Shown piece by piece: positions 3,812 through 30,355 of a stretch of 50,953 bases of DNA; positions within the stretch are counted from its first letter, which is position 1, and each line of letters opens with the position of its first letter. Below the pieces are notes generated by a model. It had not been told where the DNA came from. It was given only the letters and a program-made list of their open reading frames with translations, and made no database searches. The DNA is from a virus. A program made the position numbers and the translations under genes. The DNA is taken from positions 1-50,953 of the IMG/VR virus record IMGVR_UViG_3300024252_000020; one strand, given 5' to 3'.

Positions 3812-5443
3812 TTGAATAATAATGACTGGAATAAGTATTTTCCTTATGACAAACCTCGAGAACAACAGGAAAGAGTAATCAATAAAGTTCTTGAAGAATT
3901 TAAAAGTGGAAAGAAATATGCTATTGTTGACTGTGGTACTGGTATTGGAAAATCTGCAATAGGTCTGACAATTGCAAGATCAATAAACAACAGTTCAGAA
4001 TTTAGTGGTACATTTGAGAGTGGAGCTTATTTTTTAACAACTCAGAAGATATTGCAAGATCAATATGAGAAAGACTTTTCTAAAACGTCAGGTCTCGTGT
4101 CATTATATTCTTCCTCAAACTATAGCTGTAAGAATGATAAAAAAGCTTCATGTAAGGAAATACAGTCTGGATTAAGAGCTAATAGTCTTCCTAAGAAATT
4201 CAATAATTGTAGTTATGATTGTGCGTATAAAAAGAAAAAGAAAGACTTTATTGAAAAAGAGTTGGGTATAACAAACTTTAGTTATTTTTTAACTGAAAAG
4301 AATTATAGTCAAAAAGTTCCAAACAAAAAAGTGTTAGTGATTGATGAGGCGCATAATCTAGAAAACGAGTTATCTAGATTCATAGAAATAAGTATATCAT
4401 CATACTTTTCAGATAAAATATTAAAGTTAAAGGTTCCTAATGATTTAAATACACAGTTTAAAGCTTATAAATGGATTAAAGATATATACTATCCAGCAGT
4501 AAAGTCTAAATGTGAATTCATTAGTAAACAACTTTCAAAGTTTGGTATAACTTCTAATAAGCTGGAAGAGTTCCAAAAAATAACAAAAAACTTCGATATG
4601 TTATCTGCGCACGAAAAGAAAATACTACAGTTTATTAGTTTATATGATAGAGATAATTGGATATTTGACATTGAAGAAAAACAACAAAGTAATAAAAGAT
4701 TTGTTTTTAAACCAATAGACGTTTCTCATTATTCAACTCAATATTTGTTAGACTATGCTGACTATATTGTTTTTATGTCTGCAACTATTATTTCGCACGA
4801 AGGGTTTAGTCTTACACTTGGTTTACCTTTTGATAAAACTGTATCGATAAAAGAAGACTCGCCATTCCCATCAGCTAATAGACCCATAATATTTTCTTCG
4901 TGTGGAAGTATGTCTTATAAAAATTTGCAAAATACACTTCCGAACATTATTAAATCAATTGATGCTATACTTGAAAATCATAAGAACGAAAAAGGAATAA
5001 TACATACACATAGTATAAAAATAGCAGAGAGTGTTTATAAGAAGTTACAACGCAAATATAAAAGCAGACTTTTAATTGCTTACGGCAATGATAGAGATAA
5101 GATGCTTAAAAAGCATATGTCTTCAAAAAACCCAACTGTTTTATTATCGCCCTCTATGTCAGAGGGTGTAGATTTAAAAGGAGACCTTTCAAAATTCCAG
5201 ATTTTATGTAAGGTACCTTTCCCGTATCTAGGCGATAAAGTAACTAAGAAAAAAATGTCTAAATGGAATTGGTGGTATGATACACAAACTGTAAGAACTA
5301 TAATACAAAGTGTAGGAAGAAGTATTAGATCTGAAAAAGATACCGCTGTGACATATATATTAGATGATGACTGGAGAAGACTTAAGGGTAAATCTAAAAA
5401 TCTATTTCCAGAAAGTTTTTTTAAAAACTATCACGAATATTGA
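3812..5443 (+). CDS. DinG/XPD-family Fe-S DNA helicase
   Basis: This 543-residue superfamily 2 helicase should unwind DNA 5' to 3' with ATP. Walker A is CGTGIGKSA (residues 41-49). Four Cys (106, 114, 133, 137) follow in the spacing of the [4Fe-4S] insertion of DinG and XPD. The DEAH box is at 178-181, then FMSATI, the SEGVDLKGD motif, and motif VI QSVGRSIRS near the C-terminus. It is shorter than typical bacterial DinG (about 700 residues). The start is TTG at 3812 with AGGAC 6 bases upstream; there is no in-frame ATG nearby. It heads a plus-strand operon with a Nudix enzyme and a GroEL-like protein. In phages such helicases serve replication, recombination or removal of R-loops. Confidence 0.92.
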   Translation: MNNNDWNKYFPYDKPREQQERVINKVLEEFKSGKKYAIVDCGTGIGKSAIGLTIARSINNSSEFSGTFESGAYFLTTQKILQDQYEKDFSKTSGLVSLYSSSNYSCKNDKKASCKEIQSGLRANSLPKKFNNCSYDCAYKKKKKDFIEKELGITNFSYFLTEKNYSQKVPNKKVLVIDEAHNLENELSRFIEISISSYFSDKILKLKVPNDLNTQFKAYKWIKDIYYPAVKSKCEFISKQLSKFGITSNKLEEFQKITKNFDMLSAHEKKILQFISLYDRDNWIFDIEEKQQSNKRFVFKPIDVSHYSTQYLLDYADYIVFMSATIISHEGFSLTLGLPFDKTVSIKEDSPFPSANRPIIFSSCGSMSYKNLQNTLPNIIKSIDAILENHKNEKGIIHTHSIKIAESVYKKLQRKYKSRLLIAYGNDRDKMLKKHMSSKNPTVLLSPSMSEGVDLKGDLSKFQILCKVPFPYLGDKVTKKKMSKWNWWYDTQTVRTIIQSVGRSIRSEKDTAVTYILDDDWRRLKGKSKNLFPESFFKNYHEY

Positions 5444-5450
5444 GGGAAAA

Positions 5451-5921
5451 ATGAACGAACAAAAGCTTACGGGCGCAGGAATAATTTGTTATATAGATAA
5501 TACAGAAGGTCTAATAGAAGAGCTAGAAAAAGACTATTTGTTTCTTACATTGGAAGACAAAAACAATCAATATGATTTTCCTAAAGGCGGCCTTAATGCT
5601 AATGAGTCGATATTGGACTGCGCTAAAAGAGAAGCGTATGAAGAAGCTAATATTACATCATTAAATATAGATAGACTTTTAATAGACAGGATAGACAAAG
5701 CACATATCTGCGGAAGTGGTTTAGTTTTGTTTTTAGCTAAATTAGACATACATTCTATTGAAAGTATTGAAATAAAATTTAACTATGAAATAAATGATTA
5801 CGAGCACAAGCAAGAATTTTTCTATTTAACAAAAGAAAGAGTATTAGAAAAATTGCCTTTTTATTTAAACAAAAGTCTAGACTGGGCTTATAATATAATA
5901 AAAAAAGCGAGCCATGAATAG
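5451..5921 (+). CDS. Nudix hydrolase
   Basis: The protein has 156 residues with a Nudix box at residues 46-68: G46, E52, R60, E61, E64 and E65 are all in place, and only the late Gly is replaced by Asn67. Enzymes with these residues hydrolyse nucleoside diphosphates linked to another group, such as oxidised dNTPs, NADH, ADP-ribose, dinucleoside polyphosphates or capped RNA; the substrate cannot be read from sequence. The start at 5451 is chosen for the GAGGG site 5 bases upstream, just after the helicase stop. An upstream in-frame ATG at 5364 lies inside the helicase. The 3' end overlaps the GroEL-like gene by 8 bases, so the two are probably translated together. Confidence 0.9.
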   Translation: MNEQKLTGAGIICYIDNTEGLIEELEKDYLFLTLEDKNNQYDFPKGGLNANESILDCAKREAYEEANITSLNIDRLLIDRIDKAHICGSGLVLFLAKLDIHSIESIEIKFNYEINDYEHKQEFFYLTKERVLEKLPFYLNKSLDWAYNIIKKASHE

Positions 5922-7107
5922 TCAACTTCTTGAATTATTTTATAAATTAAAAAAATTTAATAATAAATTTAAAAATAAAAAGTTAAGGTTTATAACAAAT
6001 GATTGTGTATACGAAAGCAACTTTTTCTATACATATCTTTTACAACAATGTGAAGTATTAAAAGAAAGCCCATATAAAGACATTCTATTTAATTACTTGA
6101 TAAAATCAGAAAATGTATATCCAGGAAGCTCTTATTATCTAGTAGAAAAGCTTTTGTTGAAATTGAATGGTAATAATAACGAAAGTATCAAAGTTAAAAC
6201 AGAGAGCAACTTGTTTAATTTCAAGCGTTATTTGCAAAAAGTTTCTAGCAGGCAAGAATATGTAGATTTATTTTTGAGCATACTACACTTTAGCGGGCCC
6301 GATGCTGTGTTGACGTGTAAACCTACAAACAATATTGAAACAACAGTAGTTAAAAAAAATAATACTAAATTCGATATAAATATACATGAAAGTTTTAGCG
6401 GAATATATTTTTCAAATCAAAGAGAGACAACTAAAGAGTTTATAACTTCTGTAATGGATGTTTACATTGAAAAAGAGTCTGAGATAATGTCTTTAATGAA
6501 TTATGCTAGTGAACAAAAAATGCCTGTTGTATTAGTATGTAGAGGAATATCAGACTACGCGGTGAAAGCATTAAGAAATATAATACTCAAAAGTGGTGTA
6601 TATATTTACCCGTATATTGCTAAATTTGACAATGAAGATCCATTCATTATGAATGATTTGTCAGACGCATTTGATATTAATTTATTTTCATTAGAGTCAG
6701 GCGACAGTCTTTATACAGGTATAGTTGAAAAAACAAGTTGTAAAAGGTTGAAGCTCAAGCCTGAAAGTATTGAAGTATTTAAAATAAACAAAACTTTAGT
6801 TGATAAAATTAACAAACAAATAAGTAAAGCTGATGGTGAGGTTAAGAAGTATTTATTGAAAAGAAAGAACAGGATTACACCTAACATTGTAGAAATACAT
6901 ATTCCTAAAAGTAACATAAAGTTTATAGACGAAATAAAAAGTCTTATAAGATGTTACAATAGTTGTATAGTGTTTGGGCTATTAGAAGATGAAAATAAAA
7001 ACATAATACCTGTAAGAGAAGACTTAATAACAAAAACATTGTCTGATAAATTGTTTGATTGTTTAAACAATATTGGGTGTGTTGTAATAAAGGATAAAAA
7101 TGTCTGA
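5914..7107 (+). CDS. Highly diverged GroEL-like (Hsp60) protein lacking the ATP-binding motif
   Basis: Read against GroEL from memory, this 397-residue protein aligns in order along most of the chain. Residues 26-31 (FITNDC) match ITKDG. Residues 69-80 (YPGSSYYLVEKL) stand where GDGTTTATVLA should be. Residues 118-170 match the VGKEGVITVEEG...FDRGYISPYF stretch. Residues 203-263 (MPVVLVCRG...) match the apical KPLLIIAEDVEG stretch. Residues 297-331 match the INQIRAQIEE...GGVAVIKVG stretch. The chain ends soon after, so the second half of the equatorial domain is missing. Loss of GDGTT implies no normal ATPase ring. It may be a capsid- or tail-folding cofactor, a host-GroEL partner or inhibitor, or a virion protein. 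It overlaps both neighbours by 8 bases. The homology is my inference from pattern and is not computed. Confidence 0.62.
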   Translation: MNSQLLELFYKLKKFNNKFKNKKLRFITNDCVYESNFFYTYLLQQCEVLKESPYKDILFNYLIKSENVYPGSSYYLVEKLLLKLNGNNNESIKVKTESNLFNFKRYLQKVSSRQEYVDLFLSILHFSGPDAVLTCKPTNNIETTVVKKNNTKFDINIHESFSGIYFSNQRETTKEFITSVMDVYIEKESEIMSLMNYASEQKMPVVLVCRGISDYAVKALRNIILKSGVYIYPYIAKFDNEDPFIMNDLSDAFDINLFSLESGDSLYTGIVEKTSCKRLKLKPESIEVFKINKTLVDKINKQISKADGEVKKYLLKRKNRITPNIVEIHIPKSNIKFIDEIKSLIRCYNSCIVFGLLEDENKNIIPVREDLITKTLSDKLFDCLNNIGCVVIKDKNV

Positions 7108-7573
7108 TCATATTAAACATTTAATTGAGTGCCAATGTGTTCTTAATATTTTTAAAAACAAAACAAGGCCTGTATTTCATAAATTCAAGGTGTTTTCACA
7201 AATAGATGAGAATGATAGTATTAAAGAAAAGTATGTTATTTGCAATAATTGTGATATTGTACATAGAGTTTTTGAAGTTTGCAAAAGCGAGATAAAATGG
7301 GGGTCAGAAAATTTAAAAAGCTTAGTTACTACTAAAGATGATATAAAATTCAATCTTGAATCTAGAAACTTTGAAAACATTGTAATAGAGTTAGAGAAAA
7401 ACAATATAGACTTGTGTGAATGGGAGTATATAGAATATTTATTAGACAATAAAAAAGAAGGACAAATAGTATTAAACAAAAGTGAAATTGATAATAATAT
7501 AGTATACAATGTTCTTTACATTAAAAATGAAAATTTTTCTATTAAAAAAGAAATTCAACAAAGGTTTTTGTAA
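7100..7573 (+). CDS. Unknown protein with N-terminal zinc-ribbon-like Cys pairs
   Basis: The protein has 157 residues. Two Cys pairs in the first third (CQC near residue 11 and CNNC near residue 48) suggest a small zinc-binding domain. The C-terminal half is charged and predicted helical (FENIVIELEKNN, CEWEYIEYLLDN). The start overlaps the stop of the GroEL-like gene by 8 bases, and the next gene starts immediately after its stop, so it belongs to the same operon. No known family is recognised. The tight coupling to the pseudo-chaperonin makes a functional link plausible but not shown. Confidence 0.7.
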   Translation: MSDHIKHLIECQCVLNIFKNKTRPVFHKFKVFSQIDENDSIKEKYVICNNCDIVHRVFEVCKSEIKWGSENLKSLVTTKDDIKFNLESRNFENIVIELEKNNIDLCEWEYIEYLLDNKKEGQIVLNKSEIDNNIVYNVLYIKNENFSIKKEIQQRFL

Positions 7574-7801
7574 ATGCTTGATCCAAACAAAATTGATGAT
7601 TTGAAATCAATCGAAAAATGTAGAAAAATAGCAAGAGAAGTTATTGACTTTGGAGTAAACGAAAAAGAGATGATTAAGTTAATAGGTATTTTGTCTCTCG
7701 AACTAGAGGACATAAGTTTAATGAAAAGAATTCATTCTCTTTTTAATGAAGAAAAAATTAATGATAGTAAAGATATTAAAAAAGAAAAAATAATTATTTG
7801 A
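7574..7801 (+). CDS. Small helical protein, unknown function
   Basis: The protein has 75 residues, highly charged and predicted helical throughout, with a Lys- and Ile-rich end. The ATG at 7574 follows the stop of the upstream gene directly (TAAATG). AAAGG at the end of that gene provides a ribosome-binding site about 10 bases upstream. It is followed 11 bases later by the histone-like gene. No motif or family is recognised. It is taken as real because of operon position, spacing and typical composition. Confidence 0.6.
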   Translation: MLDPNKIDDLKSIEKCRKIAREVIDFGVNEKEMIKLIGILSLELEDISLMKRIHSLFNEEKINDSKDIKKEKIII

Positions 7802-7812
7802 AAGGAAATCAA

Positions 7813-8037
7813 ATGTCTGATAATGTTGATAGTATAGACACGGATGATAGTGACTACGTAGTGCCAGAAAGTATAAGTGAATTTTATGGGCAAGTCAAGC
7901 TTTTAGTTGAATCTATGGAAGAGGATGCGCTTAAAGCAAACAAAGGTAATAAGGCTGCAGGTGTTAGATTGAGAAAAAGTTTAAGATATTTAAAGTCAAG
8001 ATCAGGTGAGTTTGTTAAGTTTACTTTAGGTAAGTAA
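7813..8037 (+). CDS. Hc1-like (histone H1-type) DNA-binding protein
   Basis: The protein has 74 residues with an acidic N-terminus (SIDTDDSDYVVPES) and a core that matches the Hc1-like family of bacterial histone H1-type proteins: a helix (FYGQVKLLVESMEEDALKA), the hallmark KGNKAAGVRLRKSL, and a second helix. The family binds DNA non-specifically and is common in Bacteroidetes, Chlamydiae and some large phages. The start at 7813 is preferred over an upstream TTG because AAAGGAAAT precedes it. Its 3' end overlaps the convergent sigma-like gene by 12 bases. A likely role is organising phage DNA or modulating host chromatin; the acidic N-terminus is unusual for the family. Confidence 0.72.
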   Translation: MSDNVDSIDTDDSDYVVPESISEFYGQVKLLVESMEEDALKANKGNKAAGVRLRKSLRYLKSRSGEFVKFTLGK

Positions 8038-8271
8038 TTTATTTAATTTGACTAAAGAATTTTTTTCTATTTGACACACTCTCATTCTTGTTATATCAAA
8101 TAGATCACCTATATCTTGTAATGTCATGTCTTTATTCTCATTAACTTTGTTAATAATGCAGTTATTTGATGTAGATAGATCATGCCAGTATCTACACTTT
8201 TCATTGACGCAAGCCTTTTCGCAATTTTTATGAGCTGTGAAACAAGATATATTTGAGTTTTTAATAGCCAT
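8026..8271 (-). CDS. Sigma region-4-like HTH mini-protein with Cys cluster
   Basis: The protein has 81 residues. Residues 49-75 (MTLQDIGDLFDITRMRVCQIEK...) match the helix-turn-helix of sigma-70 region 4.2, which reads -35 elements and touches the RNA polymerase beta-flap. The N-terminal half has five Cys (10, 17, 21, 26, 38) and two His, suggesting a metal-binding knuckle. No region 2 is present, so alone it cannot melt a promoter. A comparison is T4 gp33, a sigma-4-like late co-activator that works with gp55, and a gp55-like protein is encoded at 29627. The first codons, start and ribosome-binding site are identical to those of the divergent phoH gene. An ordinary repressor or activator is the alternative. 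Confidence 0.75.
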   Translation of the reverse strand: MAIKNSNISCFTAHKNCEKACVNEKCRYWHDLSTSNNCIINKVNENKDMTLQDIGDLFDITRMRVCQIEKNSLVKLNKLLT

Positions 8272-8357
8272 TATAAAACCTTTCTATTTATTATTAAGAT
8301 ATAATTAGTATTATAGAAGTGGAAGGAAGGTTTTATAATGGCTATTAAAAACTCAAA
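8252..8357. repeat. 31-bp perfect inverted repeat spanning two divergent gene starts
   Basis: The left arm 8252-8282 is the exact reverse complement of the right arm 8327-8357, with a 44-base spacer. Each arm contains AAGG, TTTTATA, ATG and the codons for A-I-K-N-S. The sigma-like gene (minus) and phoH (plus) therefore share an identical translation initiation region. Outside the arms the two genes are unrelated. Confidence 0.95.
8283..8326. promoter_or_regulatory. Spacer with back-to-back TATAAT boxes
   Basis: The spacer carries TATAAT on the plus strand at 8300-8305 and TATAAT on the minus strand at 8315-8310. Each is about 32-38 bases from the start codon it faces. They are good candidates for a compact divergent promoter for phoH and the sigma-like gene. 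No clear -35 elements are visible. Confidence 0.4.
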
Positions 8358-9660
8358 AAAATTGTTTATTATTGATACAAGTGTTCTTTTGTACGATAGA
8401 AGTTGTATAGAGAATTTAAAAGGAAACGATATTGTTATTCCGCTTATTGTTCTTGAAGAATTAGACAAATTCAAGGCTAGAGAAGGAATCTTAGGTGAAA
8501 ATTCTAGATATTTCAATAGATTTCTTGATGATTTAAGAAAAAAAGGTAGCTTGCACAAGGGAATATATATTGAAGAAATAAATGCGTTAATAAGAATAGA
8601 AACAAATAATTGCTGGTTAGGATTAGAGAATCTAGATTCAAAATCAAATGATAATTTAATAATAGCAACAGCAAACTATCTTAGGAAAAGTTCAAATGAT
8701 TATGAAGACATTATAGTAATTACAAAAGATATCAATCTAAGAGTAAAATGTGATGCAATAAACATAGCAGCAAATGATTATTATGCTGACTACGAATTTT
8801 TAATAAACAAAAACACATATTCAGGAATTAACCAGATTGAAGTTGAAAGCAACATAATTGATGATATATACAATAATAAGTATATTGCTTTATACAAGGT
8901 TCCAGCGCTTACAGAAGTACACGAAAATGAATGTATTGTCCTTAAATCAAAAGAAGAGTCATCATCAGCTTTAACTATTAAAAAATTCAACAGTCTAGTT
9001 TTAGCTTCGACAAAGCAAGATATCTTTAAAAAGACTAAAATAGAAGCTAAAAACAAAGAACAGATTTTTGCGCTAAATCTTTTGTTAGATGAAAGAATAT
9101 CGTTGATGACGATGACTGGAGTTCCTGGTAGTGGAAAAACATATTTGGCGCTAATGACAGCGCTAAGTGAAATTGAAAAAGAAAATAAGAAAAGAATAAT
9201 ATTCACAAGACCTATTCAAACTGTGGGTAAAGATATTGGTTTCTTACCAGGCTCTTTAAGTGAAAAAATGGCGCCTTGGTTGTCACCTATAGTAGACAAT
9301 TTCAGGAATCAATTTGGAGATATGTCTTACTTTAACTTGATGATGGAAAAAGGTACAATTGATGTAGCACCTTTATCTTATATTAGAGGAAGAAGTTTCA
9401 ATGATGCAATTATAATTGTAGACGAAGCTCAAAACGCAACAGTTCATGAGCTTAAAACTATTATTACAAGGACTGGAAAAAATTCAAAAATATTGTTATT
9501 AGGTGATATTGAACAAGTAGATTTGCCATATGTAAATAAGTTTTCAAATGGTTTGACAATAGTAACAGAAAAGCTCAAGAACGAAAAGCTTGTAGGTCAT
9601 GTTCACTTTGAAAAAGGATATAGATCTGACTTGGCTAATGCAGCTGCAAAACTTTTATAG
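8338..9660 (+). CDS. phoH: PIN-PhoH family ATPase/nuclease
   Basis: The protein has 440 residues. The N-terminal PIN nuclease domain (about residues 8-150) begins with the acidic motif FIIDTSVLLYD (D13) and IVLEELDKFK. The C-terminal PhoH P-loop domain (about 230-440) has Walker A GVPGSGKT at residues 261-268 and Walker B IIVDEAQN around 358-365. The family couples ATP-driven RNA unwinding to ribonuclease activity in characterised bacterial examples. PhoH genes are frequent in marine phages, though their role there is unsettled. The start at 8338 has AAGG 8 bases upstream inside the inverted repeat. Nine bases separate it from the fibre-block gene at 9669. Confidence 0.93.
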   Translation: MAIKNSKKLFIIDTSVLLYDRSCIENLKGNDIVIPLIVLEELDKFKAREGILGENSRYFNRFLDDLRKKGSLHKGIYIEEINALIRIETNNCWLGLENLDSKSNDNLIIATANYLRKSSNDYEDIIVITKDINLRVKCDAINIAANDYYADYEFLINKNTYSGINQIEVESNIIDDIYNNKYIALYKVPALTEVHENECIVLKSKEESSSALTIKKFNSLVLASTKQDIFKKTKIEAKNKEQIFALNLLLDERISLMTMTGVPGSGKTYLALMTALSEIEKENKKRIIFTRPIQTVGKDIGFLPGSLSEKMAPWLSPIVDNFRNQFGDMSYFNLMMEKGTIDVAPLSYIRGRSFNDAIIIVDEAQNATVHELKTIITRTGKNSKILLLGDIEQVDLPYVNKFSNGLTIVTEKLKNEKLVGHVHFEKGYRSDLANAAAKLL

Positions 9661-9668
9661 GAGAAAAT

Positions 9669-9995
9669 ATGTCATCAAAGATATACGATCAAAACAGACT
9701 CAGGAAAAACTACCCGTTGCTTAGAGTAAAGCCTGTTTATTCACAAATAGTTGTAGGAGAAGCAGGTAATATTGGAGGTATTGATGTAGAAACAGCTATA
9801 ATACCCTTTGTAGACTCATTTTCTGGACAGTACTCATTCCAGAAGACATATACAGCAATACCTACAGTTGCTATATCACCTGAGACAGAAAATGTAAATA
9901 TATTTGTTACAACATTAACAAATTCTGAAATTATAATACAGAGTTCAGCTCCTTTTACTGGGAGTGTTCATTTGCAAATATTTAGCGAGGACTGA
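9669..9995 (+). CDS. Small beta-rich virion protein (H-type-lectin-like pattern)
   Basis: The protein has 108 residues. After a basic N-terminus, the second half has alternating strands: SGQYSFQKTYTAIPTVAISP, NIFVTTLTNSEIIIQSS and FTGSVHLQIFSED. The run from an F/Y-K-Y strand through P-x-V and back resembles the H-type lectin-like repeat found in phage tail adhesion proteins. The next gene has the same pattern at shorter length, so the two are likely paralogues. The start has AGGAGAAA 2-3 bases upstream. It opens the long plus-strand fibre block. Carbohydrate binding is inferred and not shown. Confidence 0.65.
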   Translation: MSSKIYDQNRLRKNYPLLRVKPVYSQIVVGEAGNIGGIDVETAIIPFVDSFSGQYSFQKTYTAIPTVAISPETENVNIFVTTLTNSEIIIQSSAPFTGSVHLQIFSED

Positions 9996-29343: not shown

Positions 29344-29646
29344 ATGCTTTACATTTTAATCTTCTCTATTTTAATAAATTTTATATTGTTATACTTTTGT
29401 ATAAAATTTGGAATTACAATTATAAAAATTCAAGAAATTATTGAGGAATGTTTAGATGTAATTGATGAAAAGTACAATAACGTTGTTAGAATCCTAGAGA
29501 TTCCTGTTTTTTCTGACAGTCCAGAAATTAAAAGGATGATTAATGAACTTGATCAAATAAAACTATCAATTATCTATATTGCAAACAAACTTAGCATGAA
29601 TGATTTACGTACAGAAGAAGAAAAGGATGAAGAGTTTGAAAAGTAA
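29344..29646 (+). CDS. Small single-pass membrane protein with helical domain
   Basis: The protein has 100 residues. The first 28 form a strongly hydrophobic membrane segment (MLYILIFSILINFILLYFC). The rest is an acidic amphipathic helix region ending in RTEEEKDEEFEK. It starts 2 bases after the glycosyltransferase stop and its end overlaps the late sigma factor gene by 20 bases. No function is recognised. A membrane-associated partner for the adjacent enzymes or a lysis accessory are possibilities only. Confidence 0.68.
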   Translation: MLYILIFSILINFILLYFCIKFGITIIKIQEIIEECLDVIDEKYNNVVRILEIPVFSDSPEIKRMINELDQIKLSIIYIANKLSMNDLRTEEEKDEEFEK

Positions 29647-30355
29647 GGATAAAAAACAAAAAAGCAAAAAAAATTATTATTTTACTAAACAGACTCAAGA
29701 GATGATTGTTAAATACCAGAATGAGAAGCTTAAAAGAAAAAAGGATGAGATTTATAGTTTGTATATACATCCAGCGCTTACAGAGCTTGTTCACAACTTA
29801 GTTTCAGTATATAAATACAAGTCAGCAAATGAAAGTATTCTTCATTTAAAGTCTGACTGTGTTTCTTTTTTATTTGAAACATTACACAAGTGGAATCCAG
29901 AAAATGGAACAAAAGCATTTTCTTATTTCAATGTTGTAGCAAAAAACTGGTTAACTATTAATTCTAGAAGACTTTTGAAAAACGCTAAAAGAAGTGTATC
30001 TATGGATTCATTAGAAGATTTTTCTAGTGACGAAAAAAGGTGTTTGGCAGAAATTGATATTGACTACTCACATGAAAATATATTCGTCAAGGATGAAAAA
30101 TTCGTCATTATAAGAGAAATGATAGAATATATAAAAACTCTACTTAAAGACGAGAAAGACATAAGGTGTATTGACGCAATACATCATATATACAATAATA
30201 TTGATAGCTTGGATTACTTAAATAAGCGTGCCATTTTTGTTTACTTAAGAGAGATATCTGGCTTAAACAGTTCAGAGTTAAGTTCTTCTTTGTCAAGTAT
30301 TAGAAAACATTATAAAAAAATTGCTGGACCAGATAAAATGTTTGACTGGTTTTGA
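29627..30355 (+). CDS. gp55: gp55-like late transcription sigma factor
   Basis: The protein has 242 residues. A basic N-terminus (MKSLKSKDKKQKSKKNYYFTKQT) is followed by HPALTELVHNLVSVYKY, then SDCVSFLFETLHKWNPENGTKAFSYFN and VAKNWLTINSRRLLKN. These read as the sigma region 2 helices (core binding and -10 recognition) in the arrangement of T4 gp55. There is no standard region 4, as expected for gp55. In T4 the factor directs RNA polymerase to TATAAATA late promoters with gp33 and the sliding clamp. The start at 29627 is picked for the purine-rich GAAGAAG upstream; an ATG at 29600 is possible. It lies just before the baseplate operon. Confidence 0.78.
   Translation: MKSLKSKDKKQKSKKNYYFTKQTQEMIVKYQNEKLKRKKDEIYSLYIHPALTELVHNLVSVYKYKSANESILHLKSDCVSFLFETLHKWNPENGTKAFSYFNVVAKNWLTINSRRLLKNAKRSVSMDSLEDFSSDEKRCLAEIDIDYSHENIFVKDEKFVIIREMIEYIKTLLKDEKDIRCIDAIHHIYNNIDSLDYLNKRAIFVYLREISGLNSSELSSSLSSIRKHYKKIAGPDKMFDWF

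Follow-up and report, generated by a model that had tools for sequence, protein, structure and literature searches.

An inverted repeat shared by the start regions of phoH and a sigma-4-like gene in a clade of phages: a possible lock against read-through

Two divergent genes with the same start region

We analyzed the whole of the IMG/VR virus record IMGVR_UViG_3300024252_000020 (50,953 bases), hereafter the window. A phoH gene and a small gene for a sigma-70 region-4-like protein lie head to head in it. Their start regions form the two arms of a perfect inverted repeat, so each arm holds the Shine-Dalgarno (SD) sequence, the ATG and the first codons of one gene (Table 1). When the arms were lengthened to 39 nt, 92% complementarity remained. 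The first-pass annotation had described this repeat, the spacer and the divergent TATAAT boxes, and the coordinates confirmed all three. It had also called the two genes otherwise unrelated, which agrees with the different domains found in their products.

Table 1. Positions of the features at the locus in the window
Feature	Position	Strand	Evidence and remarks
Last gene of the converging upstream operon, Hc1-like	7813..8037 (start TTG 7798 or ATG 7813)	+	12-nt overlap with the end of the sigma-4-like gene
Sigma-70 region-4-like protein, 81 aa, conserved Cys/His N-terminal part	8026..8271	-	Pfam Sigma70_r4, E 7.5e-9; 17-member alignment
Start-to-start hairpin region	8248..8361		-51.7 (+) and -41.5 (-) kcal/mol; SD and start codon paired in the predicted fold of RNA of either strand
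Left arm	8252..8282	-	SD (AAAGG), ATG and M-A-I-K-N-S codons of the sigma-4-like gene; perfect 31-bp repeat; co-varies with the right arm in relatives
Spacer (hairpin loop), 44 nt	8283..8326		Orientation constant in 6 distinct close relatives; predicted fold extends the stem
TATAAT, candidate -10 box of phoH	8300..8305	+	32 nt 5′ of the phoH ATG; consensus match only
TATAAT, candidate -10 box of the sigma-4-like gene	8310..8315	-	38 nt 5′ of its ATG; consensus match only
Right arm	8327..8357	+	SD (AAGG), ATG and M-A-I-K-N-S codons of phoH; perfect 31-bp repeat; co-varies with the left arm in relatives
phoH (PIN_4 and PhoH ATPase, 440 aa)	8338..9660	+	Pfam PhoH 2.9e-54, PIN_4 9.1e-27; phrog_2765 1.2e-95

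This repeat is the longest inverted repeat in the window, and the runner-up has 17 bp. When 40 first-order Markov sequences as long as the window were searched for repeats within 300 nt, the maximum ranged from 11 to 16 bp, and about 1.5e-10 repeats of 31 bp would be expected. The repeat, or a changed version of it, was also present on seven other IMG/VR contigs from separate metagenomes, which excludes an assembly artefact at a contig join. We also considered whether the repeat is simply the general ribosome-binding site of the phage. This was rejected, because the window contains AAGGTTTTA just four times, and the arms account for two of these.

The promoters of both divergent genes are expected in the spacer. 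The TATAAT on the phoH side is retained in four of the six members of the closest clade and has no good -35 box. On the other side, 16 of 25 clade members have a TATAAT 34-42 nt ahead of the sigma-4-like ATG. A promoter scan of the region stayed at the chance level despite the TATAAT on both strands. No T tract follows either arm, and no intrinsic terminator (a short G+C-rich stem with a U tract) was found in 7900-9800. In an Rfam search, only miRNA-type hairpin models were matched, all far under the gathering score.

Several other features of these genes were recorded. In the sigma-4-like protein, C10, H14, C21, C26, H30 and C38 are invariant in 17 relatives and lie N-terminal to the region-4 helix-turn-helix. 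This pattern is suggestive of a zinc-binding domain joined to a DNA-binding domain of the -35 type. The AlphaFold model of the protein has low confidence (pLDDT 62), which is too weak to judge such a domain. The ORF at 7798-8037 (+) matches a histone H1-like Hc1 model (Pfam PF07432, 3.5e-11) and remains a neighbor of the small gene in the close clade. In virus records with the small gene, it almost always lies head to head with phoH, even where PhoH identity is only about 36%, L065 being the exception. This near-constant pairing suggests joint regulation or joint function. Elsewhere in the window, the ORF at 29600-30355 (+) looks by eye like a phage late sigma factor, although neither PHROG nor Pfam gave a match. 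Contigs binned with MAGs (L214, L216, L217 and others; Halobacteriovorax, Methylococcaceae, Flavobacteriales) also carry relatives of the small protein and give possible but weak hints of hosts.

Joint change of the arms in related phages

Relatives were gathered with PhoH, with the small protein, with profiles of both and with DNA patterns. The DNA-pattern search saturated the close repeat type in IMG/VR. Among cultured phages, the region had no DNA match and the best PhoH identity was 34%; the head-to-head PhoH/sigma-4 pair was not found in the three annotated cultured-phage regions examined.

The closest clade comprises six distinct sequences with 76-100% identical PhoH. In this clade the repeat is kept while its content shifts in both arms together. 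The genes start with ATG GCT ATT AAA AAC, ATG ACA CTT AAA AAC, ATG ACA CTT GAG AAC or ATG ACA CTT AAY AAY, and the N-termini of the two proteins are matched within each phage (MAIKNS/MAIKNS, MTLKNS/MTLKNS, MTLEN/MTLEN and MTLNN/MTLNN). In the alignment, six of 35 pairs were altered on both sides, and 95.7% of cells were paired, against 38-54% when the pairing was slid by 1-3 columns. Similarly, the sister clade (L031, L040, L023, L033 and L028) has a different stem, in which a bulge at the SD is constant; three of its pairs were altered on both sides, and 95.0% of cells were paired, against 41-53% when slid. Further variants were seen outside these groups. L026 has a perfect 21-bp repeat that ends at the two ATGs, and in L022 the ATG and three more codons are common to both genes (MNEN in both proteins). 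In L081 the start codons are just 15 nt apart and both SD sequences overlap within one palindrome, GGAGCTCC.

The arms were more alike within a phage than across phages (12.4 vs 9.19 ± 0.30). Among PhoH relatives under about 52% identity, the likeness within a phage was not above that between phages, and the predicted fold of the region resembled that of shuffled sequence. Distant relatives keep the head-to-head genes while the repeat is absent. The first-pass annotation had proposed that the identity of the arms came from recent duplication by inversion, gene conversion or strong selection and could be checked by co-variation in related phages. The identity is indeed not due to chance, the arms change jointly in both clades, and an explanation requires gene conversion or strong selection.

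The same comparisons bear on two readings in which the arms are binding or recombination sites. One is a shared operator, at which one trans-acting factor (a RegA-like repressor, a small RNA, a DNA-binding regulator or possibly the sigma-4-like protein itself) keeps the arms identical. The core from SD to ATG is invariant in both arms of the six close relatives and could be a binding site for a factor, and the sigma-4-like protein has the DNA-binding helix-turn-helix of region 4. Phage T4 RegA likewise acts at translation start regions, but its operators are unstructured, A+U-rich and protein-bound (PMC3014915). Moreover, codons 2-6 vary from phage to phage, although the two arms of any one phage match perfectly or almost perfectly. 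L026 and the sister clade also have a different core, so that a fixed site would need a changing factor. RegA was above the Pfam cut-off in none of the 12 large relatives, which are fragments, and one weak match was seen. We consider a shared operator improbable, and the RegA-like version suggested by the first-pass annotation was not supported. The other reading is an invertible promoter, or a recombination site, bounded by the repeats. It would fit the position of a promoter-bearing spacer between inverted repeats. However, the arm sequence varies between phages, unlike a recombinase site, and the spacer has a single orientation in all six close relatives. This suggestion of the first-pass annotation thus found no support, and we give it almost no weight.

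A third reading is neutral. Nearby inverted starts that share an SD and an ATG might be copied onto each other by template switching, limited only by how much change the N-termini tolerate. In phage T4, bacteria and yeast, the homogenization of arms is an established process (PMC8604942), which can create and maintain hairpins (PMC8794818). Several observations resemble its products. On the branch of the window and L010, a block change from ACACTT to GCTATT occurred in both arms, for which other causes are possible, and the repeat extends as far as unconserved N-terminal codons of both proteins. L026 is likely a case of directed copying in which the sigma arm was turned into the phoH arm. Its sister L027 shares that phoH arm and not the sigma arm; ACA before the ATG is typical of phoH and not of the sigma-4-like gene in the clade, and L026 has the only sigma start with ACA-ATG. 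On the other hand, five lineages of the sister clade have retained the bulge at the SD (sigma side GAAAGG, phoH side GAAAGAT) even as its flanks co-vary, a pattern unlike that of whole-arm copying. Inversion of the spacer, another outcome of template switching, was not seen among the six close relatives.

Predicted folding and the converging operon

As the arms are kept matched in the relatives, any RNA that crosses the site should fold into a long hairpin that hides the start signals. The predicted fold of 8232-8377 had -54.9 kcal/mol, compared with -20.4 ± 3.4 for shuffled sequences. In the + strand RNA, all 18 SD and start positions of phoH were paired in this prediction. The spacer also prolongs the helix, so that a single long quasi-palindrome extends from codon 7 of phoH to codon 7 of the sigma-4-like gene, a feature that the first-pass annotation had missed. 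The picture differed for an RNA begun in the loop at 8314 (an assumed start site), whose predicted fold was like that of shuffled RNA (z 0.15). Across the relatives, z was -10 to -13 in the close clade, reached -8.3 in other clade members and was about 0 in distant relatives. By a hand count, G-U cells numbered 13 on the + RNA and 7 on the - RNA, which does not clearly favor the phoH side.

As a control, we called ORFs in five phage records of the clade, the window included, and folded 36 divergent start pairs. The phoH/sigma pairs ranked as the lowest five, with z from -3.0 to -11.0. The 31 other pairs, many of them equally close, showed no excess folding (mean z 0.07, sd 0.94, minimum -2.0). 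Proximity of divergent genes alone does not yield such repeats in these phages; the repeat is restricted to this gene pair and this clade. A general copying process is therefore insufficient.

A long duplex may also serve as a cleavage site, and stems with more than 30 pairs are typical targets of RNase III. RNase III might cut the stem and separate or destroy read-through RNA, with the pairing of the ribosome-binding site being incidental. A stem of this length is predicted on both strands. However, nearly all hairpin members have the SD and the start codon inside the stem, a placement that processing alone would not need, and several relatives have short or bulged stems. We consider this explanation very unlikely.

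The + strand operon upstream (3812-8037) converges on the sigma-4-like gene, and no terminator was found before phoH. Because its last gene overlaps the end of the sigma-4-like gene, there is no room for a terminator, and RNA polymerase could cross the small gene in the antisense direction and reach phoH. We compared the neighborhoods of 66 distinct loci. With neighbor classes and a 12-nt limit that were both set after seeing the data, a hairpin (z ≤ -3) was present at 15 of 19 loci where an upstream + gene overlaps the end of the sigma gene by at least 12 nt without a terminator, and at 0 of the 47 others. One of the 15 folded loci, L053, had no arm-to-arm pairs and was left out as a case of this hairpin in the tree test. 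Within the clade, the median z was -5.4 with the overlap and -1.2 without it. Among the hairpin-free loci with a converging gene, 13 carry a strong intrinsic terminator between that gene and the sigma-4-like gene. In the distant relatives L046, L051, L055, L060, L072 and others, strong terminators that look bidirectional, flanked by an A tract and a T tract, lie between the converging genes, immediately ahead of where the small gene ends.

The link was not significant after correction for kinship. About four of five phylogenetically independent pairs agreed and none disagreed (sign test, median P = 0.125). The wider class of a converging gene without a terminator, although mechanistically cleaner, gave a weaker link, with about 1.5 of five pairs in agreement. 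Six distant phages (L054, L063, L071, L078, L083 and L091) have a converging gene without a terminator and yet no hairpin, and L032 has the overlap with a z of only -1.1. Because of the post-hoc classes, the kinship, the weaker wide class and these distant counterexamples, the tie between the hairpin and a converging, overlapping, terminator-free upstream operon is only suggestive.

Neutral homogenization does not predict such a link, nor does it account for the absence of excess folding in the other divergent pairs. As copying alone leaves the restriction to a single gene pair and the persistent bulge unexplained, selection for pairing is a likely filter. We regard the purely neutral reading as rather unlikely.

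A possible read-through lock and its relation to known systems

The reading that we prefer, to which we give an even chance, is that the site is a read-through lock common to the two divergent genes and that its arms are kept alike by template switching filtered by selection. RNA entering from the upstream operon would carry the antisense of the sigma-4-like start first and the phoH start next. The two start regions would pair into a hairpin of about 35-40 pairs over the phoH SD, the AUG and the first codons, which is roughly the footprint of the 30S subunit. With its start buried, phoH would not be translated from read-through RNA. RNAs begun at promoters in the loop would lack the 5′ strand of the hairpin and would be translated. 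RNA of the opposite strand would form an equal hairpin, and the sigma-4-like gene would be locked against transcription from the phoH side. The hairpin thus probably silences both genes except when transcription starts at their own promoters between them. No gene was seen near phoH that transcribes towards the sigma-4-like gene, so the lock on the latter may be a by-product. Replication template switching between the arms would keep them alike, and selection for pairing would act as the filter.

The origin of such a lock may be simple. When two genes lie head to head, the AAGG and AUG of one start always face, in read-through RNA, the CCUU and CAU that derive from the other. A partial lock would thus exist from the outset, and only its extension would be needed. 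More tentatively, and with less confidence than in the lock as such, we suggest that the lock is mutual. Each of the divergent genes would serve as the anti-ribosome-binding site of the other, template switching would have perfected the match, and the hairpin would stand in for a terminator between converging operons.

In its presumed action, the site is best filed with the hairpins of phage T4 that sequester a ribosome-binding site and contain an internal late promoter. In T4 genes e, soc, 49 and I-TevI, long transcripts bury the ribosome-binding site in a helix, and transcripts from the internal late promoter do not (PMC3014915, PMC2988022). These, together with mobE of Aeh1, resemble the present case, in which long transcripts would pair the SD and start codon in a stable predicted helix and promoters between the strands would give RNAs predicted to be unable to form it. 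The differences lie in the 5′ strand. In T4 it is plain leader; here it is the antisense of the SD, ATG and codons of another gene, one stem serves two divergent genes, and the perfect stem (31 bp in one run) enters the coding region. The novelty would be that the 5′ strand is the start of a second gene.

Two further comparisons can be made. In the protection of IS10 and IS50 from read-through, an inverted repeat folds over the ribosome-binding site in RNA that starts outside the element but not in RNA that starts inside it. The repeat is a transposon end in those elements, whereas here it consists of two phage gene starts and there is no transposase. Quasi-palindromes made by template switching share with our case the block-wise identity of the arms, including amino-acid changes, and hairpins that last over time (PMC8604942, PMC8794818). 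The phoH/sigma case differs in being confined to one gene pair and tied to a neighborhood, which suggests that selection acts in addition to the mutation process.

If the read-through lock is true, it would be a compact way of insulating a phage gene from read-through that needs neither a terminator nor a protein. It would also mean that an inverted duplication can spread into coding sequence, and that two unrelated proteins can share an N-terminus for reasons of RNA. In these phages the hairpin forms a natural series, from perfect to bulged, absent and replaced by a terminator, in which the parts of template switching and selection in the making of a hairpin may be separated.
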